Shown here: positions 1,707-44,629 of the stretch, one piece after another
Layout of the letters: each line of letters starts with the position of its first letter
Position numbering within the stretch: the first letter of the stretch is position 1
DNA from: Bacteroidales bacterium
GTDB lineage: Bacteria > Bacteroidota > Bacteroidia > Bacteroidales > P3
Direction of reading: 5' to 3'
DNA: 64,000 nt
NCBI GenBank assembly: GCA_017451385.1
Contig: JAFSPS010000002.1
Span: 80,175 to 144,174, forward strand
Notes under the pieces: model-generated
Told to the model about the DNA's origin: nothing
The model's database searches: none
The model's input: only the letters and a program-made list of their open reading frames with translations
Translations under genes and position numbers: made by a program

Positions 1707-3695
1707 CTATTCTACAAACCCTGGCATTTTCTTAGGTGTGAATCCTAAGTTAATCTGTTTCACGCCGTCTTTGTCAATTTGTAGAAGCAGAGATTCCATG
1801 GGTTTGAATTTCAGTGTCCACTGCTGAGAGCGACCGTGATGGTTGATGGTGATGTCGCGTGTTGAGCCCTTGTCGGTAAAGGCATAGCAGTAGTCCAGTG
1901 GGTATTGAATTGTCTGCGTCATGGGGTTGGCGACAAAGACATAGTAGGTGTCGCCTTCTTCGCGCACCCAGAAGTCAGGCAGATTGTCGCCTTCGATGAG
2001 CGGCTTGATAGTCTGTTTCACAGCAGTGGCGGTGGGGTCGTTGCTGACATTCTTGAGAGCCATGAGTTCGGCGACGAGGTCGCTGTATTCGGCGTGTTTG
2101 TTGCGTCCGGGCTCTTTAGGTTCGCGAGCCATCACAACGGGTAGTCCTTGTTTTGCCAGTGCCAGGATGCTGCGCAGCGCACCCATCTCCATGTATTCCA
2201 CATCGCTGTAAAGGGCTCTGAAAGAGGCTTCGCCGCAGTGTAATGTGTCGTTGTTGTAAGTGGCCGAGGCAAGGAAATGTTCATTCACCCACAGTGGTTG
2301 CATACCTTTCAGCTGCGAAGGGGTGTTGATGTAGCGCATCTCGTACTTGCCGCCCACCCATTTCATCTGTTCATATACCCAGTCGGGGTAGCGGCGTTCC
2401 ATCCATGAATCCTCCAACGGCATATAGACTGCCATAGTGCTGTAGTTCTTGCCTTTGCGCATATATTGCGACACGATGGACATATATCGGTTGAACTCCG
2501 TCAGTGCCGTTCCGCTGAGGTTGCACAGTTCGCTGGTGCTCAACTGGCAGGTGGTATAGAAGAAGTTACTGGTGTCGCCTACCTTGTTGTATGGGAAACC
2601 GTGCCAAATAATCTGGTTGGTGCCGTTGGCAAAGATGGCGTCGCAAATCAGCTTGAGGTCGGCAATTTGCTCTTTGCCTTGATGAGGGCTGTGTCCGTGT
2701 CCGTTCTTGTAGCGTAGGCCTGTCCATCCGTAGGCACAGGTGAAAGTCTCTGCCGTTACGGCGTCTTTTCCGCCGAGGGCTGCCGCCGAGGCTGTTATCT
2801 TGCTGAAGCTGGGTTCGTAGAGGATGGCTTCCGTTTCAGGTATGTCCACCATTGTGAAGGCAGTCAGCAAGTCGGTGGGTGCGCCACCGCATTGGGCGCG
2901 TGAGAAGGCTCCCATAGCTTTTGCGTTGTCGGCGAAGGGGCCGTAGAACTCTCTCATCACGTAGCCTGAGAGGGTGTGCATATAGTCGTAGTAGATATCG
3001 GCATTGGCGGTGTCATATACAGTCTTGTTTTTTATGTATGGCGTGATGTCGTAGCCATGCTCTGCCTTGAATGTTTTGTCGAATCCGCGAGTCCATAGGT
3101 AGTCGGTCTCCACCTCCCAAGAATCGACGAAGAGTCCTGATTTGCGTCCTTTGTAGGCATCAGCGAGCCCCTTGTTCATGCGTGCCGCGTAGCGTGCGAA
3201 GGCTTCGTGGTCCAAGTGGTTGAGTATGCGTGCCATGCGTGGGTGGTCCCATGTCAGTGGTCGCTCGGCAATCTCTATGGAGTCGAAATAGTTGCGTGTC
3301 TGGTCGCCGTCGGGCAGCTCCACATCGCTGAAAGGCCACATGGTGCCATAGGTGTAGTCGCATCCCAGTCCCAGCGAGTCGGCTACTCTTTTCGCTACCC
3401 TCACCGGCACAGCCCACTCCTCGGAGAGGAAGTCGGTGTGTGCTCTTGCCGAATCGAGAAACATGGGGTAAATCCATGCTATCTCGACTCCGCCGAACTC
3501 ATGCTCTTTGAGCCATATCAGCTGGTTGCGCACGTCGTTGGTGTCTATCTCCTGCGAGAACCACCACCAGCGCGTGTAGGGCTTGTAGTTGGAGTAGAGA
3601 ACATCGTCAGCGGCGGCCTCTTGTTTGTTCTTGCAGCCATTGAACATTGTGCCGAGCAGTACGGCGGTGAGAACGAAAAGTATTGTTTTTTTCAT
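1707..3695 (-). CDS. GH106-like glycoside hydrolase lipoprotein
   Basis: A 662-residue protein with a lipoprotein signal (FVLTAVLLGTMFNGC, modified Cys at about 21), so probably periplasmic or on the outer membrane. Just after the signal comes YTRWWWFSQEIDTNDVRNQL, then LKEHEFGGVEIAWIYP and GLFVDSWEVETDYLWT. These resemble the start of the barrel and the DSWE region of GH106 alpha-L-rhamnosidase-type enzymes. GH106 proteins are usually 900-1100 residues. This one lacks much of the C-terminal beta-sandwich region and may be a short variant or act on another sugar. It is monocistronic. A TATCTTTA sequence upstream of the start is a weak -7 match. Assignment to the clan is fairly sure, the substrate is not. 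Confidence 0.7.
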   Translation of the reverse strand: MKKTILFVLTAVLLGTMFNGCKNKQEAAADDVLYSNYKPYTRWWWFSQEIDTNDVRNQLIWLKEHEFGGVEIAWIYPMFLDSARAHTDFLSEEWAVPVRVAKRVADSLGLGCDYTYGTMWPFSDVELPDGDQTRNYFDSIEIAERPLTWDHPRMARILNHLDHEAFARYAARMNKGLADAYKGRKSGLFVDSWEVETDYLWTRGFDKTFKAEHGYDITPYIKNKTVYDTANADIYYDYMHTLSGYVMREFYGPFADNAKAMGAFSRAQCGGAPTDLLTAFTMVDIPETEAILYEPSFSKITASAAALGGKDAVTAETFTCAYGWTGLRYKNGHGHSPHQGKEQIADLKLICDAIFANGTNQIIWHGFPYNKVGDTSNFFYTTCQLSTSELCNLSGTALTEFNRYMSIVSQYMRKGKNYSTMAVYMPLEDSWMERRYPDWVYEQMKWVGGKYEMRYINTPSQLKGMQPLWVNEHFLASATYNNDTLHCGEASFRALYSDVEYMEMGALRSILALAKQGLPVVMAREPKEPGRNKHAEYSDLVAELMALKNVSNDPTATAVKQTIKPLIEGDNLPDFWVREEGDTYYVFVANPMTQTIQYPLDYCYAFTDKGSTRDITINHHGRSQQWTLKFKPMESLLLQIDKDGVKQINLGFTPKKMPGFVE

Positions 3696-10593: not shown

Positions 10594-10698
10594 GAATTGT
10601 GAAAAGTGAATTGTGAGTTGTGAAAAGTGAATTGTGAGTTGTGAAAAGTGAATTGTGAGTTGTGAAAAGTGAATTGTGAGTTGTGAAAAGTGAATTGA
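10594..10698. repeat. 21-base tandem repeat, about five copies
   Basis: Near-perfect copies of a 21-base unit built from GTGAATTGTGA and GTTGTGAAAA lie immediately upstream of the transporter start codon. A related single fragment, GTGAATTGTGAAAAG, occurs near 12350. The array may include or displace the transporter promoter. Confidence 0.9.
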
Positions 10699-10795
10699 CA
10701 AATGCTTGGTCTATTGTGGTAGATTGTGGATAGAAATCTCTTTTATCGTTATTATTCGTGTTCGAAATTATGAATGATAAGACGTTTGTGGTGGG

Positions 10796-16779: not shown

Positions 16780-16986
16780 GATTAAGATTGGAGAGAGAAT
16801 AAGATTTCAAGATTTTAAGACGTTAAGATATTAAGATTTCAAGAGTATAAGATATTAAGATTGGAGAGAGAGTAAGATATCAAGATATTAAGATTGGAGA
16901 GAGAGTAAGATATCAAGATATTAAGATTGGAGAGAGAGTAAGATATCAAGATATTAAGATTGGAGAGAGAGTAAGATGTTAAGATA
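16780..16986. repeat. tandem repeat, 33-base unit
   Basis: Three and a half near-identical 33-base units (TAAGATATCAAGATATTAAG followed by ATTGGAGAGAGAG) preceded by degenerate copies. Same AAGAT/TTAAGATT family as 4717, 18109, 26453 and 27509. Bases 16987-17146 hold a degenerate ACCGATGGAGTT palindrome remnant near 17052 and AT-rich sequence leading to the next gene. Confidence 0.9.
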
Positions 16987-26452: not shown

Positions 26453-26800
26453 TTTTTTAGATGATTAAGATGGTGAGATTAGAAAGATGATTAAGATGTT
26501 AAGATTGTGAGATTAGAAAGATGATTAAGATGTTAAGATTATAAGATATTGAGATGATTAAGATTAGTATGATGTTAAGATTATAAGATTAGAAAGATGT
26601 TAAGATGTTAGGATTATAAGATTAGAAAGATGTTGAGATGTTAGGATTATAAGATTAGTAAGATGTTGAGATGATAAAGATTATAAGATTAGAAAGATGT
26701 TGAGATGTTGAGATTATAAGATTAGAAAGATGTTGAGGTGTTAAGATTATAAGATTAGAAAGATGTTAAGATGATTAAGTTTGTGAGATTATGGGTATGA
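26453..26800. repeat. long AT-rich tandem array (GATTAGAAAGATGTTAAGAT type)
   Basis: Roughly ten imperfect units of 30-36 bases combining AGATTAGAAAGATG, TTAAGATG and TTAAGATTATA. The same units recur on the other side of the transposase gene (27509-27705). No coding potential. Confidence 0.9.
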
Positions 26801-26814
26801 TATTTGTTGGTTGA

Positions 26815-26912
26815 TTCATTCAGGGATGCCCTGTAGGGGCATGAATCCAACAGCCCAGAGCGACGCTCTGGGTAAAATACCGTTGTAAAACATGCGCCCT
26901 GCAAGGGCAAAA
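26815..26912. repeat. cluster of three GC-rich REP-like palindromes, left of transposase
   Basis: ATGCCCtgtaGGGGCAT, CCCAGAGCgacGCTCTGGG and GCCCTgcaAGGGC occur in sequence between the AT-rich array and the stop codon of the transposase. Matching motifs lie on its other side, the pattern expected of REP sequences served by an IS200-like Y1 enzyme. Confidence 0.8.
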
Positions 26913-26914
26913 GC

Positions 26915-27370
26915 TTAATCCGCCCATACATACTGCTCATCAAATTCAATGTTGTATAACTTTAAATACTGTAGGTATTCGTCGTGAAACGACATCTTCT
27001 TGTGGTGTTCTCTTTGATTATTCACATACGCCACCGTCTTGTCAAATAACGATTGACTAACAGAAAAGGCTGCATAACCGCCTTGCCAAGCGAACATTTT
27101 GTATCGGTCATCTATGGTCTTAATCCATCGGCTGCTGTTGCGCTTGACTTCTTCGACGAGATGTGCTACATTTTCATTTCGAGACAATGTACATAAAATG
27201 TGAACATGGTCTCCGATACCCCCGACACGAATGGTCTGGCACCCTGTAGTATTAATCAGCTGGCCAATATAACTGTGCATACGTGCCAGATGCTCGTCAG
27301 CAATGTGCGGACTTGTGTTTTTCACATGGAAGATGATATGCAGGTATATTTTACTAAGTGACTGTGCCAT
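26915..27370 (-). mobile_element. tnpA: IS200/IS605-type Y1 transposase (REP-associated)
   Basis: 151 residues, complete. SKIYLHIIFHVKNTSPHIAD is the conserved start, GGIGDHVHILCTLSRN holds the HUH metal motif (His55, His57), and KTVAYVNNQREHHKKMSF holds the catalytic tyrosine (about Tyr115). Y1 enzymes cut and paste single-stranded DNA at small hairpins. REP-like palindromes flank it on both sides, and no TnpB partner is present, so it fits a domesticated REP-associated enzyme or a bare IS200. It lies between xerC and hpf, which are neighbours in many relatives. Confidence 0.92.
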
Positions 27371-27389
27371 GGTTTCGTTTTTTTTGCTT

Positions 27390-27475
27390 TTGCCCTTTCA
27401 GGGCGTTTTTTTTAGCTACTCTAAGTCCCCAGGGCGTTGCCCTGGGCTGATGGCTTGACGGACTTTCAGCCCGTC
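27390..27475. repeat. GC-rich REP-like palindromes, right of transposase
   Basis: GCCCTttcAGGGC, CCCAGGGCgttGCCCTGGG and a looser GACGGactttcagcCCGTC mirror the set on the left flank. 27476-27508 shows nothing else. Confidence 0.8.
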
Positions 27476-27508
27476 TTCATGCAACACATGTCATAGGATT
27501 GGATGATG

Positions 27509-27705
27509 GTGGGATGATTTGGATTATAAGATGATTAAGATGTTAAGATTATGAGATTAGTAAGATGATTAAGATGTTAAGATTATAAGATATTGAGATG
27601 ATTAAGATTAGTATGATGTTAAGATTATGAGATTAGTATGATGATTAAGATGTTAGGATTATAAGATTAGTAAGATTTTTAGATGTTGGGATTATGGATA
27701 TAAGG
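27509..27705. repeat. AT-rich tandem array, second block
   Basis: Continues the unit type of 26453-26800 (GATTAAGATGTTAAGATTAT and TGAGATTAGTAAGATG). The transposase and its palindromes appear to sit inside what was one array. Confidence 0.88.
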
Positions 27706-27711
27706 AGATGA

Positions 27712-28611
27712 TTATTCTTTGGCGGTTGCTCTGGGGTGAGCATGTTTGTAGTTCTCTTTCAGGTGTTCGCGTGTGACGTGGGTGTATATCTCTGTGGCGT
27801 TGAGGTTGCTATGGCCGAGCAGTTCTTTGATGGCGTCGATGTTGCCGCCTTGGTTGAGGATATGTGTGGCGAAGGTGTGGCGGAAGATGTGCGGGCTTAT
27901 CCTGTCGGCGTTGCTCAGTGAAGGCATGTAGCGTTTGACGATGGCGTACACTTTGTCGGCGTTGACGGCTTTGCCGTTATCCGACACCAGCAGGTGGTCG
28001 TCCTCGCAGGCTATCTGCTCTCGCAGCGTCAGGTAGTCGTTGATGCTTTTCATTAGCTCGTCCTCTATGGGGATGACGCGTTCCTTGTTGCGCTTGCCTA
28101 TGACGCGAAGGCATCGTGCCGAATGGTCCACCGACTGCAGCGTGAGTCCTGCAGCCTCGCTGCGGCGCATGCCGGTCTCGTAGAGGAGTCGCAACAGCAG
28201 TCGGTCGCGCTGCCCGTTGAAGTCGTCGGCAAAGAGTCCGGCATCGTATATGTGCTCCACCTCGTTCTCTTTGAAGAAAATGGGCAGTGGCTTTGGCGTT
28301 CGCGGCACCACCACGCGTGCCATGATGTCAATGGCTATCCATTGCTGTTGCAGCATGTACTTGCTCCATCCCCGCAGGGCACTTATCATCTTCTTGATTG
28401 TCGTGGCTTTGGCACCCTCCTCCATACGTATGGCTTGCCATTCGCGCGGCTCGCGCATGGTGATGTCCTCGATGGTGTCGATGCCGAGGGTGTGCAGGTG
28501 AGTGGCAAACTCCTGCAGCTCGTGGCTATAGACTTCCAGCGAGAGTGGCGAGAGTCGCTTCTCGTGTTCGACGTAGTCGAGGTAGCGTTTTATGGATTCG
28601 CTGATGAGCAA
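27712..28611 (-). CDS. xerC: tyrosine recombinase XerC
   Basis: 299 residues. SAM-like N-domain (SIKRYLDYVEHEKRLSPLSL...), then the catalytic domain with Arg149 in ETGMRRSE, Lys173 in VIGKRNKERVIP, His241 and Arg244 in HIFRHTFATH, His267 in LLGHSNLNATEIYTH and Tyr276. Length and residues are those of chromosomal XerC/D, which resolves chromosome dimers at dif. It is not a phage-type integrase. In related genomes the order xerC-hpf is typical; here the pair is interrupted. Confidence 0.9.
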   Translation of the reverse strand: MLISESIKRYLDYVEHEKRLSPLSLEVYSHELQEFATHLHTLGIDTIEDITMREPREWQAIRMEEGAKATTIKKMISALRGWSKYMLQQQWIAIDIMARVVVPRTPKPLPIFFKENEVEHIYDAGLFADDFNGQRDRLLLRLLYETGMRRSEAAGLTLQSVDHSARCLRVIGKRNKERVIPIEDELMKSINDYLTLREQIACEDDHLLVSDNGKAVNADKVYAIVKRYMPSLSNADRISPHIFRHTFATHILNQGGNIDAIKELLGHSNLNATEIYTHVTREHLKENYKHAHPRATAKE

Positions 28612-31930: not shown

Positions 31931-32518
31931 ATGTTTGAATATATCTCAGGGAGACTTGACAGTCTGACAGCCACGCAGGCAGTGATAGACTGTGGTGGTG
32001 TGGGCTACCTGCTCGAGGTGAGCATCACCACCTACGACAAAATACAGCATTATCGCGATTCGGGCGAGGCGGTGCGCCTGTTGGTGCATGAGGTGATACG
32101 CGAGGATGTGCACCAGCTCTATGGCTTTGCCGATGAGGGCGAGCGGTCGCTCTTCCGCCTGCTGATAGGTGTGAGCGGCGTGGGTGCCAACACGGCGCGC
32201 CTGATGCTCTCAACGCTTACTGCCGTAGAACTTGCCAATGCCATAGCTTCGCAGGATGAGGCTACCATCAAGAGGATAAAAGGCATCGGTGCCAAGACGG
32301 CGCAGCGCATAGTGCTCGAGCTGCACGACAAGGTGAAGGTCCTCGGTGCTGTGGCCAGCGGACAATCGCCGACAGGCAGCAGCGCATCCAAAGAGGAAGC
32401 CCTCGCCGCTATGACCATGCTCGGCTTCGCCAAAGCACAGGTGGAGAAAGTCCTCGCCACCCTCGACAGCCGTCTGACGGCAGAGGAACTAATCAAAGAG
32501 GCATTGAAAAAGCTGTGA
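31931..32518 (+). CDS. ruvA: Holliday junction branch migration protein RuvA
   Basis: 195 residues. N-terminal OB domain MFEYISGRLDSLTATQAVID and VGYLLEVS. The HhH pair reads LLIGVSGVGANTARLMLS and IKRIKGIGAKTAQRIVLELH. The C-terminal RuvB-contact domain is EEALAAMTMLGFAKAQVEKV. RuvA tetramers hold the four-way junction for RuvB. Monocistronic; two hairpins follow the stop codon. Confidence 0.97.
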   Translation: MFEYISGRLDSLTATQAVIDCGGVGYLLEVSITTYDKIQHYRDSGEAVRLLVHEVIREDVHQLYGFADEGERSLFRLLIGVSGVGANTARLMLSTLTAVELANAIASQDEATIKRIKGIGAKTAQRIVLELHDKVKVLGAVASGQSPTGSSASKEEALAAMTMLGFAKAQVEKVLATLDSRLTAEELIKEALKKL

Positions 32519-32528
32519 CAAATTAGCT

Positions 32529-32603
32529 TCTGCATCGTCAGATGCAGAGCGAACAGGAAGATGTGCTGCCGACTGGAAAAATTTCAGTCGGCAGCGATTT
32601 TTT
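32529..32603. terminator. two hairpins, the second a bidirectional terminator, after ruvA
   Basis: TCTGCATC/GATGCAGA (32529-32548) is followed by GCTGCCGACTG (32565-32575) paired with CAGTCGGCAGC (32585-32595), then GATTTTTT. The second stem overlaps the stop codon (32586-32584) of the minus-strand gene fragment described next, so it was probably the shared terminator of ruvA and that gene. Confidence 0.8.
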
Positions 32604-32672
32604 GGTAGGCTATGCGCTCGTCGCCGTTGGCGAGGTGGATGATGCCGCAGCGGGTGAAGGCGTACTTCTCAA
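32584..32672 (-). pseudogene. 3' terminal fragment of the esterase-GNAT gene
   Basis: On the minus strand this reads EKYAFTRCGIIHLANGDERI then AYQKIAAD and stop. The first 21 codons are identical, base for base, to the end of the intact gene at 39465-40667, which finishes AYQKMRFF instead. The upstream 370-odd codons are absent. It marks the original 3' end of that gene, separated from its body by the inserted caspase operon. Confidence 0.85.
32609..32672. repeat. 64-bp direct repeat, left copy
   Basis: Identical at all 64 positions to 39490-39553 and in the same orientation. The two copies bracket a 6.8-kb block of different base composition. Possible attachment-site-like or recombination junction. 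Confidence 0.95.
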
Positions 32673-32746
32673 GCAATATAATGCAGGAATATATAATTTC
32701 TCCGTTTACCCATAGAGTCCTGATTGTTGATACCGAGTGGCGAATG

Positions 32747-32762
32747 TTTTGTTTAAACAAAA
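32747..32762. promoter_or_regulatory. 16-bp perfect palindrome TTTTGTTTAAACAAAA
   Basis: Lies about 95 bases upstream of the -7 element of the caspase operon leader, inside the inserted block. Candidate regulator-binding site; nothing else is visible between 32673 and 32857. Confidence 0.4.
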
Positions 32763-32857
32763 GGTTACCCCATTAACCAAATTTTAGTGAGATTGGGTAT
32801 TTTCATATCTTTTTATCTAAATCTTATCCTACAAGGTATTAGTATTAAAAAAAAATG

Positions 32858-32865
32858 TATCTTTG
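32858..32865 (+). promoter_or_regulatory. -7 element TATCTTTG of the caspase operon
   Basis: Perfect TAnnTTTG match preceded by an A-run. The upstream TTTG half is poor. Predicted start near 32872. Confidence 0.55.
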
Positions 32866-32871
32866 CACTTT

Positions 32872-33115
32872 GAAAACCGACGAGAGTTAGGTCGGAATGT
32901 GCAAAAAGCATTTGTATAGGTCTGCATATTAAAATCGCCAAATTTTATCCTAAGGACTTTAATACTGATGCCTTTTATTCATGCCTTTATGTAGTGGCAT
33001 AATGCCATTCCATATTGGAAGCATAGGATAAGGTTCAGATTAGTTTTGCTTAGGAAAGGCGTTTGGCGATGCCTAATATGCGTAGAACTAACAACGCGAG
33101 TTCTATGCTTTTTTT
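32872..33115 (+). ncRNA. structured leader or small RNA ending in an intrinsic terminator
   Basis: About 240 bases between the promoter and the first operon gene can fold into several hairpins: CCGAC/GTCGG at the 5' end, TTATCCTA paired with TAGGATAA about 75 bases on, ATGCC/GGCAT and TTCC/GGAA within that, and GGC/GCC. The final stem GCGTAGAACT (33080-33089) and AGTTCTATGC (33099-33108) is followed by seven Ts (33109-33115). The terminator stands before the operon, so it is either an attenuator/riboswitch or a separate small RNA. No known aptamer recognised. Confidence 0.5.
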
Positions 33116-33162
33116 ATTATTGCTTACCGCTGAGAACTCAGGTAGGTAAAAAAATATTATAT

Positions 33163-33696
33163 ATGAAAAGAAAAGTTTTGTTGTTGTCGTTGCTGATGTT
33201 GGCAAATATTGTCTGTATGGCATCGTGCAATGTGTTTGGACGTAGAACTCCGCAGAAAAACATTCAGCAGGATTCCGCTGTGTATGCTATATTGGGGCGG
33301 ACAATGTCGGACATATTGTTTAACCCAAGTAGCGTTGTCTGTTATTCATTAAAAGGGGTTGAGAATGTTGAACAGGATATGGTACAAGTAGAACCTCATT
33401 GGGTACGTGATAGTGTACTTGGCATCCTTTCACCTCAGTTGTATGGAGTGCTTCAGTTTGCATTGATCTCGAATATAGAGAACTATAAAGATGACTCTAT
33501 AAAAGTGAAATCGCCGTATTGTCCAGTAATAGAGTTTGAATTTCGTCAAAAGAAAAAAAATGTACATATACTTATTTCAATGTCTGATTTTTCATGGACA
33601 ATAATGTATGATGACAAACGTCAGATACATTACAACTATCAGGACAGGCAGTTAATAAACCGTTTGTGCGAATTTTTTCTAACCAATACAAAATAA
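33163..33696 (+). CDS. small lipoprotein heading the caspase operon
   Basis: 177 residues from ATG 33163. An in-frame TTG at 33046 lies inside the leader terminator and was rejected. Lipobox in LSLLMLANIVCMASC, so exported and lipidated. The mature part contains GRTMSDILFNPSSVVCYSLK and MVQVEPHWVRDSVLGILSPQ, then a Lys-rich strand pair (FEFRQKKKNVHILISMSDFS) and ends in a short helix. No family recognised. Twelve bases separate it from the caspase-like gene. Codons are AT-richer than in the flanking housekeeping genes. Confidence 0.7.
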   Translation: MKRKVLLLSLLMLANIVCMASCNVFGRRTPQKNIQQDSAVYAILGRTMSDILFNPSSVVCYSLKGVENVEQDMVQVEPHWVRDSVLGILSPQLYGVLQFALISNIENYKDDSIKVKSPYCPVIEFEFRQKKKNVHILISMSDFSWTIMYDDKRQIHYNYQDRQLINRLCEFFLTNTK

Positions 33697-33708
33697 CATA
33701 TTAATAAG

Positions 33709-34836
33709 ATGAAAAAGAACATATTGTTGCTTGCAGCTTTTATGATGACGGTCTGTAGCTCGATGGCGCAGACACTTCATGTGATAAACTTTTGTAACAC
33801 TTTACATCCTGAAATCGGAACGGTTGTTGATTACGAACGTACAAATAGAGAATCAGGGCTTATTGCATCGTTTATTGGTTATAACATAAGTTATTATAAT
33901 GGAGTAGGCGAGGCTTGCTCCAAAGAAAACTTGATGACAACCATAAACTCTTTAGGATGTGGCAAGGATGATATTATTTTGTTTTACTATTCAGGGCACG
34001 GGACGCGTTCTATAAATGACAAGAGCGAATACCCCCAAATGTGTCTAAAATATGAGGGTTATCAACAAGATAAGTTCGTCCCCGTACACACTGTTGTTGA
34101 AATGCTTAAGGGCAAAGGAGCTCGCCTTACAATTGTGCTAACAGATTGTTGCAATAAGGCACTCCCTGGTATATCAACCAAAAGTCTAATGGAGAATGAT
34201 GGTAAAGCCGTTGTTGCAGACGAAAGGATAGAAAAAAATTATCGAAAACTATTTCTTGAAAATAAAGGTCTTATTGTGTCTACAAGCAGTAAGGCAGGTC
34301 AGTACTCTCACGGATGGGAAGAGTTAGGTGGAGCGTTTTCTATAATGTTCTTCGAATCGGCGCTTTACTCTGCATGCAAGGGCGTTATCCCTGCTACTTG
34401 GGAAGCAATTATGGCGAGCGTCGCTACTTCTATTGAGGGTCAAACACCTTTTTACGAGCTTAAACTACAGAACGTCGTTGAAGCGACAGACCAAGTAACA
34501 TCCAATGCAACGACCTCACACACTCAACAAAACGTAACGGCAGTTGATGCATCTTTTGCTGATGATTTGTCAACATTATTGGATGATTCTCAAAGTATAG
34601 AGTGGCGTACACGACAGGCAGAACGTCTTAATGCTAAATACTTTGCAGAAGATGCTAAGGTGGCGACCGTCGGACGTAATGGGAAGACTATCATAGATTT
34701 TGAGACATCACTTGAGTTCTTGCACCGAATGGCGACAACAAGGCTTATTAAGCAAGTCCTTGTTTTGACGGAGCAAAAAGATGCTACGGGTAAAAGGAAC
34801 TATATAAAAGTACAAGAAATAAGAAAAACTAAATAA
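33709..34836 (+). CDS. exported caspase-family (C14-like) cysteine peptidase
   Basis: 375 residues. Signal peptide LLLAAFMMTVCSSMA, cleaved before QTLHV. The caspase p20-like core is about 22-255: the strand LHVINFCNTL, then DDIILFYYSGHGTRS with the catalytic His97, and RLTIVLTDCCNKALPG with the catalytic Cys147 or Cys148 after a strand, the standard His/Cys dyad geometry. A C-terminal domain (about 285-375, SLEFLHRMATTRLIKQVLVL) looks NTF2-like. Being secreted, it should act in the periplasm or on the surface, unlike the cytoplasmic caspases of phage-defence systems. Cleavage specificity and target unknown. Neighbours are six other exported proteins in the same operon. Confidence 0.88.
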   Translation: MKKNILLLAAFMMTVCSSMAQTLHVINFCNTLHPEIGTVVDYERTNRESGLIASFIGYNISYYNGVGEACSKENLMTTINSLGCGKDDIILFYYSGHGTRSINDKSEYPQMCLKYEGYQQDKFVPVHTVVEMLKGKGARLTIVLTDCCNKALPGISTKSLMENDGKAVVADERIEKNYRKLFLENKGLIVSTSSKAGQYSHGWEELGGAFSIMFFESALYSACKGVIPATWEAIMASVATSIEGQTPFYELKLQNVVEATDQVTSNATTSHTQQNVTAVDASFADDLSTLLDDSQSIEWRTRQAERLNAKYFAEDAKVATVGRNGKTIIDFETSLEFLHRMATTRLIKQVLVLTEQKDATGKRNYIKVQEIRKTK

Positions 34837-34838
34837 CT

Positions 34839-35510
34839 ATGAAGAATTATTTTATCACAATCACGCTATGTCTGTTTGTTTTTCTGACAGCTAATGCCCA
34901 AAATGTAAACTTGGTCAACGATCTTGGTCTTTTAGATCAGTCAGAGCTTGATGCCGTTACGGAACGGATTATACAGAAGGTTGATGATTTCCAAGTGGCG
35001 GTGCAAGACCTTGCGCGCATTGGCAATATGTCGGGTTCTGCAAAGCAGGAACTCAGCGCACAGACAATAAAGCTGTTTATTGGAGATGGGAAACCTTATC
35101 ATGTCAAAGATATATATGGCAGAGATACCATCCATTCTGCTGTTACTATGAGTACTATAAGTAGTAAATACAAGGGACGTAGAACGCGTCAGCCTATGGT
35201 GTCGTATCTTCAGATGCTAGTAAAAAGAAGTATGGATAGGACATATAGATACAAAAAAGTCATCATAGAGGCTGCTGATGCTGTTCGAGTGGACAATCTG
35301 TCTAAAATAGGCGATGGACGATATATTGCCACAGCTCATATTCTACAGCATTTTGTAGGTTTTCGTGGTGACGGTATGAAAATGTATGAGGATTATACTG
35401 CTAAGACGATAACAATATACATTAACCGTTTTGAACAGACTACCCCTGATGGCGAGATAAAATACTGGGATATTAAACTTGGCGATATAGATTGCAATGA
35501 TATATGGTAA
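34839..35510 (+). CDS. exported NTF2-like protein of the caspase operon
   Basis: 223 residues. Signal peptide TITLCLFVFLTANAQ. After a helical stretch (DQSELDAVTERIIQKVDDFQ) comes a curved-sheet-like region with FIGDGKPYHVKDIYGRDTIH, QPMVSYLQMLVKRSMD and DGRYIATAHILQHFVGFRGD. This order loosely echoes the C-terminal domain of the caspase protein before it. It may be a partner or regulator. Starts two bases after the caspase stop; its own stop overlaps the next start. Function unknown. Confidence 0.7.
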   Translation: MKNYFITITLCLFVFLTANAQNVNLVNDLGLLDQSELDAVTERIIQKVDDFQVAVQDLARIGNMSGSAKQELSAQTIKLFIGDGKPYHVKDIYGRDTIHSAVTMSTISSKYKGRRTRQPMVSYLQMLVKRSMDRTYRYKKVIIEAADAVRVDNLSKIGDGRYIATAHILQHFVGFRGDGMKMYEDYTAKTITIYINRFEQTTPDGEIKYWDIKLGDIDCNDIW

Positions 35511-36310
35511 AATATAAGTTGTTCCTTTGTTTTGCGGTCATGGCGTTGACTGCCCATGTTTTTGCTCAGACATGGGGTAGTAATGCCGAGCTGAATATGT
35601 TGGAAGGCTATTATGTCAAAAGCCTTAACGAATTTATGCACCGCTTTAATGCAGATGAGATTCCACCATTTATCAAAGAGGAAATGGGGACAGATATTCG
35701 AAGGAAATGCATTCTTGCATTATTCGATTTTGACCAGTTATCGAGTGCGGAAAGCGAAATGGCTAAGCGTATTATGAAGTTTGACTCGGTAGTTTGTGCT
35801 AGTAATTCATTGTTGAGTATCGATAAGCAAGGTCTATATGCTGAAGCTCGTTGTGCATTCAGATACAAAAAACAAGAAATTGAACTCAGCTTGGTACTTG
35901 TCTATGAGAAGATGAGAGATGGTTATTATAAATGGGCTTTAGCCGGTGCCAATGGCTTGACGGAAGCAGGTTTAATCGACACAATACGCCGAGGGTATAT
36001 CAATCCTGTCCAGCATGAACTGCATTTTTCAGAGCTTGAAGGAGCATTTCCTCACATGAGTGTTTTTTACGGGCGAAACCGCGTAGTGGACCAATTATCA
36101 TTTGTTGCGGGGCTTGCCGAAAGTGGGATGTTACAGTTGATAGGCTGCCAATCGGTTACATATTGGTTCACACAGATTCCGGGATATGTTTTTTCTGTGT
36201 CGCTTCATCCGCGACTTGGAGGGAATGCAGGCTGGCTGATTCACGATTTAATGGAAATACCAGACAAAGACAAAACTTTATTTATTGATAATTTAAAAGG
36301 TGTGATATGA
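35504..36310 (+). CDS. exported protein of the caspase operon, unknown
   Basis: 268 residues. Signal peptide FLCFAVMALTAHVFAQ. The middle (ECIL-like FDFDQLSSAESEMAKRIMKF, then LYAEARCAFRYKKQEIELSL) suggests an alpha/beta domain. The C-terminal part has INPVQHELHFSELEGAFPHM and QIPGYVFSVSLHPRLGGNAG WLI-type strands. Start overlaps the previous stop by seven bases, and its stop overlaps the next ATG (ATGA), so three consecutive proteins are translationally coupled and probably needed in fixed ratio. No family recognised. Confidence 0.65.
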   Translation: MVKYKLFLCFAVMALTAHVFAQTWGSNAELNMLEGYYVKSLNEFMHRFNADEIPPFIKEEMGTDIRRKCILALFDFDQLSSAESEMAKRIMKFDSVVCASNSLLSIDKQGLYAEARCAFRYKKQEIELSLVLVYEKMRDGYYKWALAGANGLTEAGLIDTIRRGYINPVQHELHFSELEGAFPHMSVFYGRNRVVDQLSFVAGLAESGMLQLIGCQSVTYWFTQIPGYVFSVSLHPRLGGNAGWLIHDLMEIPDKDKTLFIDNLKGVI

Positions 36311-37764
36311 AAAAGATTAGTTTTCTATTCTTCATGGTGTTCTCCTATGTTGCCATGGCAGATAACGTTGTGTCATTAAACGAGGCGAGAGGGATAGCGG
36401 ATGCCTATTATGGCGCATTTCAAAGAATAGCTCGATTGCCGGACGGCGAGGAGGTACTCCGAAACAGTCAGAAACTTTTTAAGGCTATAGGTGTAGATGA
36501 TAACGGCAATGAGATTGGCGGTGAATTCAATGTCCCAAACGATATTGGAATAATCTTTGGGACGGATAATGGATTAGACAATATAACAATCCGCCATTAC
36601 GTGAATAAGATACGAGAATTTTCTAGGAGAGATAATCTTGTTTTTTCTTATGATATACAATCATCCAGATATTTGTATTCTCCGCATATGAATGGAGATA
36701 AACGTATCCCGGATTATGCTTTGGTGATAGTAAAAAAAACATTATCAGCATCGACTATTAGTCCAAAGGTAATATGGGATACTATGTTTATCAATGCAAC
36801 TACAAAGTCCATAATCCTTGTAAAAAATGGATACAGAAAAATGTCTCTGTTAAGTGAGCGCGAATTGCTGAAAGTAGCAGATATGATGTACGATGAAGAA
36901 AGATACGAGGAGGCATACCAGATGTATGGTGAGGTTTTGCGTAGGGATCCAAAATCCAATGTGTCTTATAAGCTTGGTGTTATGACTTTCAAGGGGGAGG
37001 GGTGCAAACAGTATTCGAGAAAGGTAAGAGATTACCTTGTGGAGTTTTATTGGCAGAAGACAATAGATGGACGTGCTCAATTGGAGCGACATAATATTAT
37101 GTTGTACGATATGGGAATACCCTCATTTAGTGGATATGAAAGTAACCCATTCCCTTCAAATAGACTTCTTGCATATAATCACAACAAGAAAAGATTTGGC
37201 TATATTTCTGCACAAGGGGAGATGGTGATAAAACAGCAGTATATGGCTGCATATCCTTTCTTTTCAAATGGGACGGCTATTGTTAAAACAGAGAAATCAG
37301 AATGGATGCAGATTGACACTAACGGACGTGCCTTGGAGTTGTATGATAATGTTTCAAGGGTTGAACATGAATATAAGTATTTAAGCGATTGGGGGCGACA
37401 ATTGGTTGTCAGAAAAAATGGATTAGTTGGTGTAATTAATAGAGAAACGGGGAATTTGGATGTGCCGATGATTTATAAAAGAATGTGGTGGCTTGATAAT
37501 TATATAAAACCATTCTTTGTTGTAGAATGGCAAGATGGAAAGGTGGGCGTATTGTCATTCAATGGGAATGAAATAGTTCCAATAAAACATAGTATAATGC
37601 TCTTGATTGAAAATGATGATAAAACCACTCTTCTACGAGAAACAGTAAAACTGTTGTGTGATTATGATAAAGCTACATATCAAAAATTATATGAGAGATA
37701 TGGTAAAAAAATCCCAGACGCTGAATTGAAAAAAATCGGACAACTATATATTATCAACCTTTAA
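36307..37764 (+). CDS. exported TPR-like and WG-repeat protein
   Basis: 485 residues. Signal peptide ISFLFFMVFSYVAMA. The N-domain has RIADAYYGAF-like helices. About 180-250 is Sel1/TPR-like (YDEERYEEAYQMYGEVLRRD then SYKLGVMTFKGEGC). From about 285 there are WG/KWG beta repeats: YNHNKKRFGYISAQGEMVIK, VVRKNGLVGVINRETGNLDV, VEWQDGKVGVLSFNGNEIVP. WG-repeat proteins often accompany exported enzymes as binding scaffolds. The gene overlaps the preceding stop (ATGA) and ends 11 bases before the barrel genes. Confidence 0.75.
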   Translation: MKKISFLFFMVFSYVAMADNVVSLNEARGIADAYYGAFQRIARLPDGEEVLRNSQKLFKAIGVDDNGNEIGGEFNVPNDIGIIFGTDNGLDNITIRHYVNKIREFSRRDNLVFSYDIQSSRYLYSPHMNGDKRIPDYALVIVKKTLSASTISPKVIWDTMFINATTKSIILVKNGYRKMSLLSERELLKVADMMYDEERYEEAYQMYGEVLRRDPKSNVSYKLGVMTFKGEGCKQYSRKVRDYLVEFYWQKTIDGRAQLERHNIMLYDMGIPSFSGYESNPFPSNRLLAYNHNKKRFGYISAQGEMVIKQQYMAAYPFFSNGTAIVKTEKSEWMQIDTNGRALELYDNVSRVEHEYKYLSDWGRQLVVRKNGLVGVINRETGNLDVPMIYKRMWWLDNYIKPFFVVEWQDGKVGVLSFNGNEIVPIKHSIMLLIENDDKTTLLRETVKLLCDYDKATYQKLYERYGKKIPDAELKKIGQLYIINL

Positions 37765-37775
37765 TACATAACACA

Positions 37776-38528
37776 ATGAAAAAAAACATTTTGTTAATTA
37801 TAATGCTCTGCATTTCGTTTGCATCGTTTTCGCAGATCAAACACGATGTTTGGTTCGGACATTTCAAGGTGCGTAGTAATTCTTTGACGTTGCCTTATGG
37901 ATTGGGGTGTCTGTGGAATAACGGTGTTATTCATAGTCATCAAGGGTATAGATGGTTACGGATTATGCCAGAGTTTGATATACATGTTCCGATATGGAAG
38001 CTACTTGACAATAACGAAAAAACAAGTACAAAAGGTCCATATTGGTGGCGTTGCCTCTTGTTTGGTGATTATAGTCATAACTACAATTTTTCGTTGGGCT
38101 ATACGCTATCGTGGCGTTCATTCGATATTCCCGTTGGTGCTCGTTTAGGAGTAAACTATGAGTGGCGTGGGCTATGTGTCACTGAAGGAAGATTGATGGG
38201 CGAACATCGAACGTCAGGAGTGATACCAAGTGTTAATTTAACATGGAATGTTTTGGGATTAGATTTCGAGCGAGAAGAGCAATGGAACATTATAGCCGAG
38301 ATAGGTACTTCGTACGTTAAGATACTCACATATAATGACCCTATTCAATTGGGGAGAACAGCTGTAAATGATGGTTGGAGGGGTTTGGTATCATTGGGCG
38401 TATGTGCAAATAAAGCTATGATGTTGTTTGCGATTCGTTACGAATGGGATAATTATAATTATTTCAATGTAACAGACACACGTACAAGGCTCAATAATCT
38501 GGTTTTGTCATTCACTTCGTATTTTTAA
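37776..38528 (+). CDS. outer-membrane beta-barrel protein, paralogue A
   Basis: 250 residues. Signal peptide LLIIMLCISFASFSQ. The rest alternates aromatic and polar residues as in an OM barrel and ends in a terminal aromatic (LVLSFTSYF). Shared landmarks with the next gene: VRSNSLTLP, FDIHVPIWKLLD, LFGDYSHNYNFSLGYT, ITSGVIPSVNL-type, IGTSYVKILTYNDP and RYEWDNYNYFNVTDTRTRLN. The pair therefore arose by duplication and has diverged. Possible surface exit or anchor for the operon's proteins. Confidence 0.75.
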   Translation: MKKNILLIIMLCISFASFSQIKHDVWFGHFKVRSNSLTLPYGLGCLWNNGVIHSHQGYRWLRIMPEFDIHVPIWKLLDNNEKTSTKGPYWWRCLLFGDYSHNYNFSLGYTLSWRSFDIPVGARLGVNYEWRGLCVTEGRLMGEHRTSGVIPSVNLTWNVLGLDFEREEQWNIIAEIGTSYVKILTYNDPIQLGRTAVNDGWRGLVSLGVCANKAMMLFAIRYEWDNYNYFNVTDTRTRLNNLVLSFTSYF

Positions 38529-38563
38529 TCTCCACAAAGAAAAAACAAGGTTATTTATTGAGT

Positions 38564-39448
38564 ATGAAAAGATATTTTTTCTTAGTTATTATCCTTTGCA
38601 TTATTACGCACTCGGCATTAGGTCAGGAACAACGCCGTGTTTGGTCATTGCGGTTGAATGTGCGAACCAATTCGTTGCTTATTCCTGTATGTTATCGTAT
38701 CGTCTTCGATTCAAAACTATACGAGAAATTTTCAGCAAGGATGTTGGAATACTTGAATTCAAAAGCAGAGCAAGAGAAGAACAGCAGGATAGAACGGCAT
38801 GAAAGAACGAATGATGAAACTTCAGTGATAGGGTTGCTTCTAATTCCATATATATTTCCGCCCAATCTTGAGTATGATATCCATACTCCTAATTGGGAGC
38901 TATATGACCATCAAGATATGATTGAGACAGGGAAACCGTATATATGGCGTAATTTGTTGTTCGGAGATTATTCTCACAATTATAATTATGCGATAGGAGC
39001 TACTTTTTCATTGCATCCTCGTCATTTTCCATTAAGTTTCAGCCTTGGCGCAAATTGGGAGTCAAGAGCCTTGTATATAACAGATGGTGAAATGTCGGGC
39101 AAGCATCGTTCAGCTGGATTTGTTCCACACTTTTTTTTAAGTTATCATTTTGTTGATAATGATAACGTGAGTAGAGATTGTTGGGACTTTACATGCAATA
39201 TTGGTACATCATTTGTTCATATACTTGAATATGATGGTCCATTGGAGGGTGGAAAAGATAATTTGAGTGATGGCTTGCGTGGTCAAGTGGGAGTGAGCCT
39301 ACAGCATGGTTTTGAGGTCTATTCGATAAGATACGAATGGGATTTCTACAACTATTTTAATATTCCAGATATAACAACGCGGATGAATAGCCTTGTTTTT
39401 TCATATTGTTTGAATTTCGGTGCCGCTCACAACCGTTTGTTGCAATAA
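38564..39448 (+). CDS. outer-membrane beta-barrel protein, paralogue B
   Basis: 294 residues from ATG 38564 (a TTG six bases earlier is less likely). Signal peptide FFLVIILCIITHSALGQ. Same barrel plan as the preceding gene, with VRTNSLLIPVCYRI, YDIHTPNWELYDH, LFGDYSHNYNYAIGATF, IGTSFVHILEYDGPLEG and RYEWDFYNYFNIPDITTRMN. It also has an extra charged loop at about 60-90 (NSKAEQEKNSRIERHERTND). Last gene of the inserted block; the 64-bp repeat begins 42 bases after its stop. Confidence 0.75.
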   Translation: MKRYFFLVIILCIITHSALGQEQRRVWSLRLNVRTNSLLIPVCYRIVFDSKLYEKFSARMLEYLNSKAEQEKNSRIERHERTNDETSVIGLLLIPYIFPPNLEYDIHTPNWELYDHQDMIETGKPYIWRNLLFGDYSHNYNYAIGATFSLHPRHFPLSFSLGANWESRALYITDGEMSGKHRSAGFVPHFFLSYHFVDNDNVSRDCWDFTCNIGTSFVHILEYDGPLEGGKDNLSDGLRGQVGVSLQHGFEVYSIRYEWDFYNYFNIPDITTRMNSLVFSYCLNFGAAHNRLLQ

Positions 39449-39464
39449 GGTTGTCCCCCAAAAA

Positions 39465-40667
39465 TCAAAAGAACCTCATCTTCTGATACGCTATGCGCTC
39501 GTCGCCGTTGGCGAGGTGGATGATGCCGCAGCGGGTGAAGGCGTACTTCTCAAAGAGATGCTGCATGATGAGGTTGTCGCGGTGGGTGTCTATGCGTAGG
39601 TTGGGGTCTATGGAGAGGGCGAAGTCTGTAACGGTCTTGAAGATGCCGTGTGCTGAGGCTCGGCTGCCTATGCGGTGTAGTGCGTGGTAGGGCATGGTGT
39701 CGTCAGCCCACTGTCCGTCGATGACGGCGTAGGTGGGTTCTGGCGAAGGCAGGAGTGCGAAATAGGCCGATAAGAGCCCGTCGTCATCAATGGCAACATA
39801 CCCTATGCCTTCGGCGATGTCATTTTCTATGAGCTGCTGCGAGGGGTAGCCGTTCACCCATTGCTGATTATTGCCGTTGGCACGCATGATGGCGCGCGCT
39901 TCTTCGATAATAGCCATAATGGCCTCAATGTCGGAAGGGGTGGCATGGCGAATGTGGTAGTTGTGTTGTCGGGTGTGTTGTCTTGCCAGCTGGTTGACGC
40001 ACCATGCGAAGGCCTCTGCCGTACGGCGTGCGTTGTCATCGAAGTGTCCGCCGCGATTCCATCGCAAGGTGCAGTGGCTGATGCCCAGATGCTGGCATAG
40101 CTGTCGGTACTCGTTGCGCACGCGGTTGCCAATCTGTGCTATGGATTTGTTCTTGCTATGCTCTTCGCGTTGTCCGAGGCTCAGATATATGTAGCGTGCT
40201 GCGGTTGGGTGTTCAGAAGAGAATGAAGGCCAGTCGCGTATCCATAGCGAGGGAGATGCTGCCGCCACGGCATCGATGTTCAGACCGCACTTGGCTGCCC
40301 AGAGGGCGAAAAGTCCGCCCAGCGAGTAGCCGCCAATCACGGTGGGCAACACGCCGTAGTGTGCATATAGATAGGGGAGTAGTTGTTGTGCGATATAGGC
40401 GTATGAGGCTTCTGCGGCCTGTCCGATGAGAGGGTCGTGCGATATGGCGGGGTCTTGCCACGGCGTGAGGTCGCGGTTCCAGTCGTCCACTTCAAAAGCC
40501 ACGAGGCAAACGGGTTCCGTCGCAGTATTTGCAATAAAAGCAGCTTCGTCGGCTATGCTGCGCTGCTCATGTCTGCCCAAGGGTTGCAATAGCAGGTAGC
40601 GTGGGGCATTGCCGCAGAAGATGTGGCACTGCCGTCCGGCGATGTTCTCGAGGGGAGCCGTACCCAT
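39465..40667 (-). CDS. fusion: alpha/beta-hydrolase esterase + GNAT acetyltransferase
   Basis: 400 residues. Residues 1-235 form an esterase-like alpha/beta hydrolase with the nucleophile elbow VIGGYSLGGLFALWAA (Ser115) and a C-terminal His region RGGHFDDNARRTAEAF. From about 237 a GNAT domain begins (YHIRHATPSDIEAIMAIIEE) with AYFALLPSPEPTYAVIDGQW and a final RIDTHRDNLIMQHLFEKYAF strand-helix. The two activities are normally separate genes. The last 21 codons coincide with the right 64-bp repeat, and the stop lies beyond it in sequence unlike the left copy, so insertion of the caspase block re-created the 3' end. It directly follows the calycin-like gene. Confidence 0.88.
   Translation of the reverse strand: MGTAPLENIAGRQCHIFCGNAPRYLLLQPLGRHEQRSIADEAAFIANTATEPVCLVAFEVDDWNRDLTPWQDPAISHDPLIGQAAEASYAYIAQQLLPYLYAHYGVLPTVIGGYSLGGLFALWAAKCGLNIDAVAAASPSLWIRDWPSFSSEHPTAARYIYLSLGQREEHSKNKSIAQIGNRVRNEYRQLCQHLGISHCTLRWNRGGHFDDNARRTAEAFAWCVNQLARQHTRQHNYHIRHATPSDIEAIMAIIEEARAIMRANGNNQQWVNGYPSQQLIENDIAEGIGYVAIDDDGLLSAYFALLPSPEPTYAVIDGQWADDTMPYHALHRIGSRASAHGIFKTVTDFALSIDPNLRIDTHRDNLIMQHLFEKYAFTRCGIIHLANGDERIAYQKMRFF
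39490..39553. repeat. 64-bp direct repeat, right copy
   Basis: Identical to 32609-32672; lies inside the esterase-GNAT coding region near its 3' end. Confidence 0.95.
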
Positions 40668-43285: not shown

Positions 43286-44629
43286 ATGGAAGGTATAATT
43301 TTCAAAAGGAAGATATATGAGCGGATGCTCCACTGGAAGCAGACAAAGGATGGCTCCACGGCACTTTTGATAAAGGGTGCACGTCGTGTTGGCAAATCGA
43401 CAATAGCCGAAGAGTTTGCCAGGCAGGAATACGACTCGTATATTGTGGTAAACTTCGATAATGCACGTAAATCGGTGTGGGATGCGGTGCATAATATTGC
43501 TGATTTGGACAATTTCTTCATCCAGTTGCAACTAATTTATAATGTAAAACTTGTGGAGCGCAAGTCGGTGATTATTTTTGACGAGATACAGAAGGCTTCC
43601 GCTGTACGCCAAGCGATAAAATATCTCGTCCAAGACCACCGCTATGATTATATTGAAACGGGGTCGCTCTTATCCATCAAAAAGAATATCAAAGATATTA
43701 CGATACCGAGCGAAGAGACACGCATCACAATGTATCCTATGGATTATGAGGAATTTCGCTGGGCATTAGGAGACAGTGTTACACTTCCGTTGCTTCAAGA
43801 GAGTTTTAATAATCGTAGGTCGCTGGGCGATGGTGTGTGTCGTAAGTTAATGCGTGATTTCCGTCTATACATGATTGTTGGCGGTATGCCACAGGCGGTG
43901 AATACATATATACAAAGCAATAACTTATCGGATGTAGATCAAACGAAAAGAGAGATAATAGAACTTTATACTGAGGATTTTCGCAAAATAGACCCAAGTG
44001 GGAAGGTTTCGAGACTTTTCCGTGCCATCCCATCCGAATTGTCGAAAAACGCATCACGCTATCAAGTGAGCAGTGTACTCGGAAGAGTGGCAGAGACTAC
44101 TGATATGGATACATTGTTGGCGGACATGGAAGACAGTTTGTGTGTCAATATGGCTTATCATGCCAATAGTCCGTCGGTAGGTATGGCTATGCACAAAAAC
44201 AAAGATTGTTACAAGATGTTTGTGGCCGACACGGGACTATTTGTTACTCTGGCATTTTGGGATAAAGAAGTTACGGAGAATTCTTTATACCATCATTTGC
44301 TATCCGATAAATTGAGTGCCAATTTGGGATATGTATATGAAAATGTTGTGGCTCAGATGTTGAAAGCGCAAGGCGACGAACTTTTCTATTACACATGGCC
44401 TACCCCAAGTGGCAAACACAATTATGAGGTGGACTTCATACTTTCTCGCAATAATAAGTTGTGTCCCATTGAGGTTAAATCGTCAGGATACAAGACCCAC
44501 ACTTCGCTGGACGAGTTTTGTAATAAGTATTCGTCGGAAATTTTGTGGCGTTATCTTGTATATACTAAAGATTTGAAGAAAGACCAAAACACGCTCCTCG
44601 TGCCTGTCTTTATGGTGCCTTTTCTATGA
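43286..44629 (+). CDS. AAA_14/DUF4143 family ATPase
   Basis: 447 residues. Walker A LLIKGARRVGKSTIAEEF (31-39), Walker B VIIFDEIQKASAVRQAIKYL (Asp99-Glu100), the YIETGSLLSI strand and MYPMDYEEFRWAL typical of AAA_14. The C-terminal DUF4143 part contains VADTGLFVTLAFWDK, GYVYENVVAQMLKAQG and EVDFILSRNNKLCPIEVKSS, which has the D..E.K layout of PD-(D/E)XK nuclease-like folds. Function of this widespread family is not settled; genomes carry variable copy numbers. AT-richer than neighbours and with its own repeat-bearing promoter, consistent with independent acquisition. Confidence 0.88.
   Translation: MEGIIFKRKIYERMLHWKQTKDGSTALLIKGARRVGKSTIAEEFARQEYDSYIVVNFDNARKSVWDAVHNIADLDNFFIQLQLIYNVKLVERKSVIIFDEIQKASAVRQAIKYLVQDHRYDYIETGSLLSIKKNIKDITIPSEETRITMYPMDYEEFRWALGDSVTLPLLQESFNNRRSLGDGVCRKLMRDFRLYMIVGGMPQAVNTYIQSNNLSDVDQTKREIIELYTEDFRKIDPSGKVSRLFRAIPSELSKNASRYQVSSVLGRVAETTDMDTLLADMEDSLCVNMAYHANSPSVGMAMHKNKDCYKMFVADTGLFVTLAFWDKEVTENSLYHHLLSDKLSANLGYVYENVVAQMLKAQGDELFYYTWPTPSGKHNYEVDFILSRNNKLCPIEVKSSGYKTHTSLDEFCNKYSSEILWRYLVYTKDLKKDQNTLLVPVFMVPFL

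Follow-up and report, generated by a model that had tools for sequence, protein, structure and literature searches.

How did an operon of seven genes, none of which appears to encode the means of its own movement, come to lie between two identical copies of the 3' end of a neighbouring gene, and what is the structured RNA at its head? Both questions are raised by a 64,000-nucleotide stretch of DNA from a Bacteroidales bacterium (the whole of which is called the window below), in which a block with a caspase-fold peptidase gene separates ruvA from a gene for an esterase-GNAT protein. The explanation that we favour, though with moderate confidence, is that an RNA-led seven-gene operon, acquired horizontally, came to lie at the esterase-GNAT 3' end through a homology-driven insertion. 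On this reading, the scar illustrates how a foreign operon that apparently lacks its own recombinase can settle at the end of a host gene and leave that gene intact. The leader RNA is the more novel of the two features. The source genome is a 2.57-Mb draft of 54 contigs (94.5 % complete, 4 % contamination), and the window lies within a single 144-kb contig. Comparisons were made against 120 genomes of the genus and 190 of the family (own genome included in each) and 393 genomes of the order, representing 206 genera.

The repeated gene end and the direction of insertion

The features of the two junctions are as follows.

32609-32672, minus strand: left 64-base repeat, the displaced original 3' end of the esterase-GNAT gene (64/64 identity)
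39490-39553, minus strand: right 64-base repeat, within the intact esterase-GNAT gene (64/64 identity)
32597-32608, minus strand: outer part of the left copy; the third base of each of the four AYQK codons is unlike that in the right copy
39465-39489, minus strand: new esterase-GNAT 3' end, brought by the insert (AYQK in other codons, MRFF, stop)
32564-32596, no strand assigned: terminator hairpin common to ruvA and the original esterase-GNAT end, with a T run on the plus strand
32673-32819, no strand assigned: left edge of the insert; homology with the leader of a relative, G104, begins near 32800
31931-32518, plus strand: ruvA, the left neighbour (RuvA domains in Pfam)
39465-40667, minus strand: esterase-GNAT gene, 400 aa, the right neighbour (Esterase domain in Pfam)

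The original prediction described a perfect 64-base-pair (bp) direct repeat around seven genes, with the right copy inside the intact esterase-GNAT gene and the left copy a 3' fragment of it still joined to its own stop and to the ruvA terminator. The sequence bears out each of these points. The intervals 32609-32672 and 39490-39553 agree at 64 of 64 bases in the same orientation; the left copy reads in frame as EKYAFTRCGIIHLANGDERIAYQKIAAD-stop and overlaps the hairpin at 32564-32596, within which its stop codon (32584-32586) is placed; the right copy belongs to the 400-aa gene ending in AYQKMRFF; and seven genes lie between them. The name GNAT is that of the prediction, and no GNAT model matched in a Pfam search of the protein. 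The similarity extends to 76 bases with four mismatches (95 % identical; 32597-32672 versus 39478-39553), and a query with these 76 bases finds only the two places in the genome. The minus-strand reading of either copy gives EKYAFTRCGIIHLANGDERIAYQK, after which the left continues to IAAD-stop and the right to MRFF-stop. Each of the four mismatches is a silent change at the third base of a codon, the residues being A, Y, Q and K in both copies (GCC TAC CAA AAA versus GCG TAT CAG AAG), and the chance of AYQK in random sequence with the base composition of the insert end is about 3e-6; hence, the insert carried the end of a homologous gene. The predicted replacement of AYQKIAAD by AYQKMRFF is thus seen in a specific form, with AYQK kept by other codons and MRFF following it.

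This recoding bears directly on the possibility that two independent end-joins 64 bases apart left a long target-site duplication, by a transposition mechanism that is not known. That exactly one 64-base stretch is identical would suit such an origin, but AYQK in four other codons at the edge of the insert is not expected from it, and no inverted repeat of at least 16 bases was found at the block ends; we regard it as very improbable. Of the marks of a transposon or insertion sequence (IS), neither a transposase in g1-g7 nor terminal inverted repeats of that length were found. The other exact direct repeats of at least 30 bases in the window either have copies no more than about 170 bases apart or adjoin an IS200-like gene (26518/27562), and none of them spans an operon.

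The polarity of the event can be read from the terminator. It is kept by the left copy, and a terminator scan found no terminator-like site at the right end of the block, where the g7 stop and the esterase-GNAT stop are 16 bases apart. The left end is therefore the original one and the right end the new one, which supports the earlier proposal that the block was inserted close to the esterase-GNAT 3' end with the left copy as the old end. A later duplication or gene conversion, in which the operon already stood beside the esterase-GNAT gene and 64 bases were copied to the ruvA side, would agree with the perfect identity and abrupt ends of the repeat. However, the left copy has a natural end, a stop and a terminator half-stem in register, none of which is expected of a copied fragment, and this course of events appears improbable. 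The absence of any difference in 64 bases fits a recent event, as had been proposed, and no date can be derived from it.

Origin and route of entry of the block

The seven genes of the block are all on the plus strand.

33163-33696, plus strand: g1, predicted lipoprotein, no Pfam family; homologues head the operon in G024, G104, G102, G192 and others
33709-34836, plus strand: g2, caspase-fold peptidase (Peptidase_C14; Pfam 40.1 bits, cut-off 21.4), predicted to be exported from a reading of its N-terminus
34839-35510, plus strand: g3, predicted exported, no family assigned; has syntenic homologues
35504-36310, plus strand: g4, predicted exported; served to trace the operon
36307-37764, plus strand: g5, WG-repeat-like protein (weak WG_beta_rep match below cut-off)
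37776-38528, plus strand: g6, no family assigned; paralogue of g7 (35 % identity)
38564-39448, plus strand: g7, paralogue of g6

The guanine plus cytosine (GC) content is 0.382 in the block versus about 0.536 in the 3 kb on each side, and at third codon positions (GC3) it is 0.34-0.39 for g1-g7 versus 0.62-0.70 for six flanking genes, a seventh (the ATPase gene at 43286) having 0.46. Relatives of g4 occur in nine of the 190 family genomes, own included, and in 79 of the 393 of the order. The closest are found in the metagenome-assembled genome (MAG) RUG11504 (69 %) and in G192, from another family (66 %), the best within the genus reaching 56 %. Four named relatives of the operon are Bacteroidia or Bacteroidales MAGs, and the two with a stated source come from deer rumen and omasum. 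The gene order g1-g2-g3-g4-g5 is kept in G024, G104, G102 and G192. This conserved order, together with the closer g4 relatives outside the genus, indicates that the operon is an exchangeable unit. Its low GC and the greater closeness of operon relatives outside the genus than within it support the view that the block was probably acquired horizontally. No relatives of the caspase, the esterase-GNAT protein or g4 were found in viral contigs, nor of g4 in plasmids. The GC-poorer ATPase gene of the right flank (43286-44629) has a 61 % homologue that adjoins a caspase operon in G542 (L101).

With respect to its entry, we propose that a donor piece recombined with the recipient via the gene-end homology, either by a single crossover once it had been ligated into a circle, or in linear form, by unequal joining to two sister chromosomes. 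In either case the old gene end and the terminator would have stayed on the ruvA side, and the intact gene would have taken the donor's end. Such an insertion accounts for the homologous end and requires no recombinase from the insert itself; no recombinase, integrase or transposase was found among g1-g7 with Pfam or NCBIfam, which agrees with the prediction on this point. PMC3240628 reports that in E. coli incoming linear DNA can be ligated to a circle and integrate by a single crossover, and that one-end homology with illegitimate joining at the other end also occurs, rarely, in the same organism; PMC3784515 describes interchromatid integration that yields duplications in S. pneumoniae. The likeness to the block lies in the sufficiency of homology at one end. 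These processes were shown in bacteria outside the present group, and any choice among the routes is our inference.

The prediction had instead pointed to integrative elements with site-specific recombinases. For an element of this kind the end of the esterase-GNAT gene would have been restored from the element's own attachment site, with the recombinase supplied in trans or its own integrase since lost. In favour of it are the attachment-like direct repeats at both ends, the gene 3' end as target and its restoration with silent differences, features recalling prophage e14 in icd and similar elements. There are also six tyrosine recombinase matches in the genome, one of them about 4 kb to the left of the block. 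That neighbour (27712-28611) was considered as the agent and set aside: the XerC and XerD models match it best, yet below their cut-offs. Against such an element, no recombinase, mobilisation or replication gene was found in the block, and once operon and RNA are set aside, only about 150 bp of its DNA remain at the left edge and 40 bp at the right; unlike e14-type elements, it has no integrase, phage or mobilisation gene that we could find, measures only 6.9 kb and occurs once. No leader RNA was found within 40 GNAT-gene loci of relatives. Among 40 RNA-led loci, only the window's own is bracketed by at least 30 exact bases, the next longest repeats being 29 and 26 low-complexity bases, and no comparable repeat was found in the searched flanks of the other 39. 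This search reached about 3 kb upstream and mostly 9-10 kb downstream, so that the ends of long operons were missed. The scar at the 64-base repeat is hence not general among RNA-led loci, and we consider a site-specific element unlikely, preferring homology-driven insertion.

At 12 other caspase-operon loci (L111 left out), flank repeats were limited to 28 bases of low complexity and 24 bases in G024 and 34 bases in G004. The last is a dispersed repeat, as judged from its 14 matches in the G004 genome; it is intergenic and brackets the caspase operon there (L068, 5696 and 13496), the bracketing pair scoring best.

Several points weigh against homology-driven insertion. Neither donor nor empty site was seen among the genomes searched: no empty site or close locus was found with the esterase-GNAT DNA in 120 genus genomes or with ruvA in 119. 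For the former, the best match other than itself was 79 % over 121 bases; for the latter, the nearest ruvA (G078, 77 % in DNA, in which no esterase-GNAT match was found) is followed by a gene with its own hairpin in place of the esterase gene, which from its sequence we take to be rubrerythrin-like. Of the 40 GNAT loci of relatives, 37 have no in-frame stop within 120 bases past the aligned region, so that their gene ends cannot be compared; in the remaining three, AYQK is found at one locus and AYQW at two. Furthermore, no differences in 64 bases followed by four in 12 calls for a conversion tract or for both copies being recipient DNA, and the core of an attachment site would explain this pattern as well. 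Finally, the genome is a draft with the contig number and contamination given above. An assembly or strain-mixture artefact, with strains with and without the block joined at the common 64 bases, would draw on the same properties, and a 64-base repeat can exceed a small k-mer. Yet four distinct flanks lie within the one contig, and the junction 32672/32673 needs a molecule joining gene end and block, which neither an empty nor a repeat-less strain has; we judge an artefact to be rather improbable.

The leader RNA and its fold

Upstream of g1, the block carries the following elements.

32877-33119, plus strand: structured leader RNA, supported by its fold (z -5.3), its family and covariation; start inferred from the promoter
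32924-32931, plus strand: 5' arm of helix P1, pairing with 33074-33081
33020-33028, plus strand: inner segment AGCATAGGA, which can pair with the terminator 3' arm (RNAalifold consensus)
33080-33116, plus strand: terminator hairpin and T run at the leader end, from sequence and folds; 99.6 % of alignment cells paired in the genus
32820-32846, plus strand: upstream promoter element AATCTTATCC..AAGGTATTAGTAT, near reverse complement of two conserved leader segments
32858-32865, plus strand: Bacteroides-type -7 element TATCTTTG, conserved upstream of RNA copies

The leader of the window folds to a minimum energy of -82.9 versus -59.2 in shuffles (z -5.3) and ends in a hairpin followed by a T run. 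It shares 81 % identity over 216 bases with that of G104, as compared with 65-70 % for gene DNA matches of at least 100 bases. As a 258-base DNA query it matches in 51 of the 120 genus genomes, own included; in 45 of the 51, a single match takes in 200 or more of the 258 bases, and the matches in the remaining six are partial or short. Four leader places were recovered in its own genome by this query and a fifth, weak, by model. Forty further regions, a part of all places listed, were fetched. A first model (R1), run over 54 sources, returned 48 matches: 45 copies, a weak one from a different genus (L100) and two antisense to true copies, which were left out of the counts. Members of the family lie at window 32877-33119 and in L098, L065, L067 and L181-L220. 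A second model (R2) gave hits in 33 of the 393 order genomes, which represent 17 of the 206 genera (the own genus among them); a single genome has up to five model hits. In L188 two copies (1901-2096 and 2827-3024) face away from each other about 730 bases apart.

P1 is a Watson-Crick helix of 7-10 bp in 44 of the 45 copies (3 bp in L195), among which there are 33 distinct helix sequences, and is kept at 7-10 bp in all 12 R2 loci read out, 11 of them from other families and one from the genus. Its mean run is 8.0 versus 3.7 with arms swapped between copies, a control that leaves relatedness in. The inner P1, P2, apical stem and terminator were tested for covariation on a sequence alignment: 97.3 % of their cells are paired, and 54 cells are changed on both sides, versus 12.6 in shuffles (none of 500 reaching 54) and 4-16 in slid versions. 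P2 holds 52 of these 54. The number of further pair types does not exceed that in shuffles (440 of 500 as high). Three motifs recur in the genus, each in 44 of 45 copies: AAGCAT close to the 5' end, GCATAG within the inner segment and, at the 3' end, CTATGCT.

These complementary motifs raise the possibility that the terminator 3' arm may pair alternatively with the inner segment or with the 5' end of the RNA, and that readthrough into the caspase operon would be switched by whichever pairing forms. The 3' arm was located in 41 of the 45 genus copies and ten of 12 others. Outside the genus it reads CCCACGCU or similar and was located in nine of 11 copies. In eight of these nine it pairs over 6-9 bp with the inner segment (in L225 over 4 bp), and in all nine it pairs over 5-8 bp with the 5' region, in L223 and L230 by a stretch other than AAGCG. 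Shuffled inner windows reached a pairing of at least 6 bp in 95 of 1020 cases. Forcing the inner pairing in the window costs about 9 kcal/mol relative to the best fold. These complementarities suggest a regulatory role for the leader, possibly as a switch of readthrough.

Upstream of the RNA, the consensus GAACCTTATC-N-AAGGCATCAGTAT corresponds, when reverse-complemented, to two conserved RNA segments whose order is inverted. When up to three mismatches are allowed, a mirror of the 12-base segment is present in 29 of 45 copies versus 25 of 900 simple shuffles, and one of the 15-base segment in 18 of 45 versus none of 900. The upstream element is wholly missing in several copies. The TATCTTTG element that follows is named after what we take to be the Bacteroides -7 consensus.

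Operons behind the RNA and comparison with known systems

A same-strand open reading frame of at least 90 aa begins no more than 150 nt after the RNA in 38 of 46 copies. Measured over 3 kb, downstream GC falls below the upstream value in 37 of 40 loci, in 22 by at least 0.08, and exceeds it in the remaining three, L185, L206 and L219. This comparison omits six copies that have short flanks or belong to a double locus. Ten sampled downstream proteins include tubulin-like (one below cut-off), PP2C, kinase, vWA, dynamin-like, metallophosphatase and radical SAM proteins, one being without a match. From these families, a role of the RNA-led operons in biological conflicts appears plausible. The caspase operon is one such case. 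Among its 14 loci (window, L063-L068, L097-L102 and L111), four, the window included, have the RNA and one more has it weakly; leader and caspase operon are separable.

We tentatively propose that this is a leader RNA class of about 240 nt in Bacteroidales, not described before, which would serve as a shared on/off module of exchangeable, GC-poor operons of conflict type (caspase, tubulin-like, kinase/phosphatase, dynamin-like, radical SAM). It mirrors its own promoter and may act back on that promoter or its activator, and the 64-base scar could be a snapshot of the capture of one such module. Were this so, an RNA common to many unrelated, mostly GC-poor operons across the order would give acquired conflict-type clusters a shared means of control, offering a handle for finding them and asking what signal activates them, and in this respect it matters more than the scar.

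Other observations count against our reading of the RNA. Nine of the 14 caspase-operon loci lack an RNA match and one has only the weak one, and eight of the 46 RNA copies lack an open reading frame at the distance given above. The terminator and inner segment hardly vary within the genus. Outside it, the local 5' arm of the terminator is missing, with local runs of 3-4 bp in nine of nine located copies; the three-way competition is thus seen in the genus copies only, which slightly weakens the case for the shared module. In these more distant copies the T run comes after the helix with the inner segment or the 5' end.

No Rfam 15 family matched the RNA of the window (E up to 5) or of 20 genus loci and 19 further loci (E up to 0.5), the few matches seen (microRNA models, tRNA, malK-III, DUF805b) falling outside it. 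It was not met in our literature searches and may stand among the unnamed candidates in the supplements of PMC2864571 and PMC8040213. JUMPstart/ops, EAR and riboswitch-type leaders resemble it as structured 5' leaders, with a terminator, of long and often acquired operons, but the window RNA differs from them in sequence and architecture. With 6S RNA, including 6S-Flavo RF01685, it shares a long hairpin and conserved segments mirroring the promoter region; in contrast, the leader RNA occurs up to five times per genome by model hits and in front of operons. A direct search with RF01685 was uninformative, as no control genome matched. At the protein level, several RNA-led operons encode the kinds of protein known from the nucleoside triphosphate (NTP)-dependent conflict systems with caspases, vWA, HSP70, tubulin and GTPases that are treated in PMC7159879, in whose main text the terms 'leader' and 'attenuat' do not occur. 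The window operon, by contrast, has the caspase only, and g2 scores 34.9 bits with the model of the EACC1-associated conflict caspase (NF047832, NCBIfam), under its cut-off of 140; a defence database search also gave only a weak caspase match.

Elsewhere in the window, the IS200-like transposase gene (26915-27370) is surrounded by a 67-base exact direct repeat (26518/27562) and further repeats (26473-27562). At 10597-10740 and 16849-16980 there are direct repeats whose successive spacings are 21 and 33 bases, in the style of tandem arrays.

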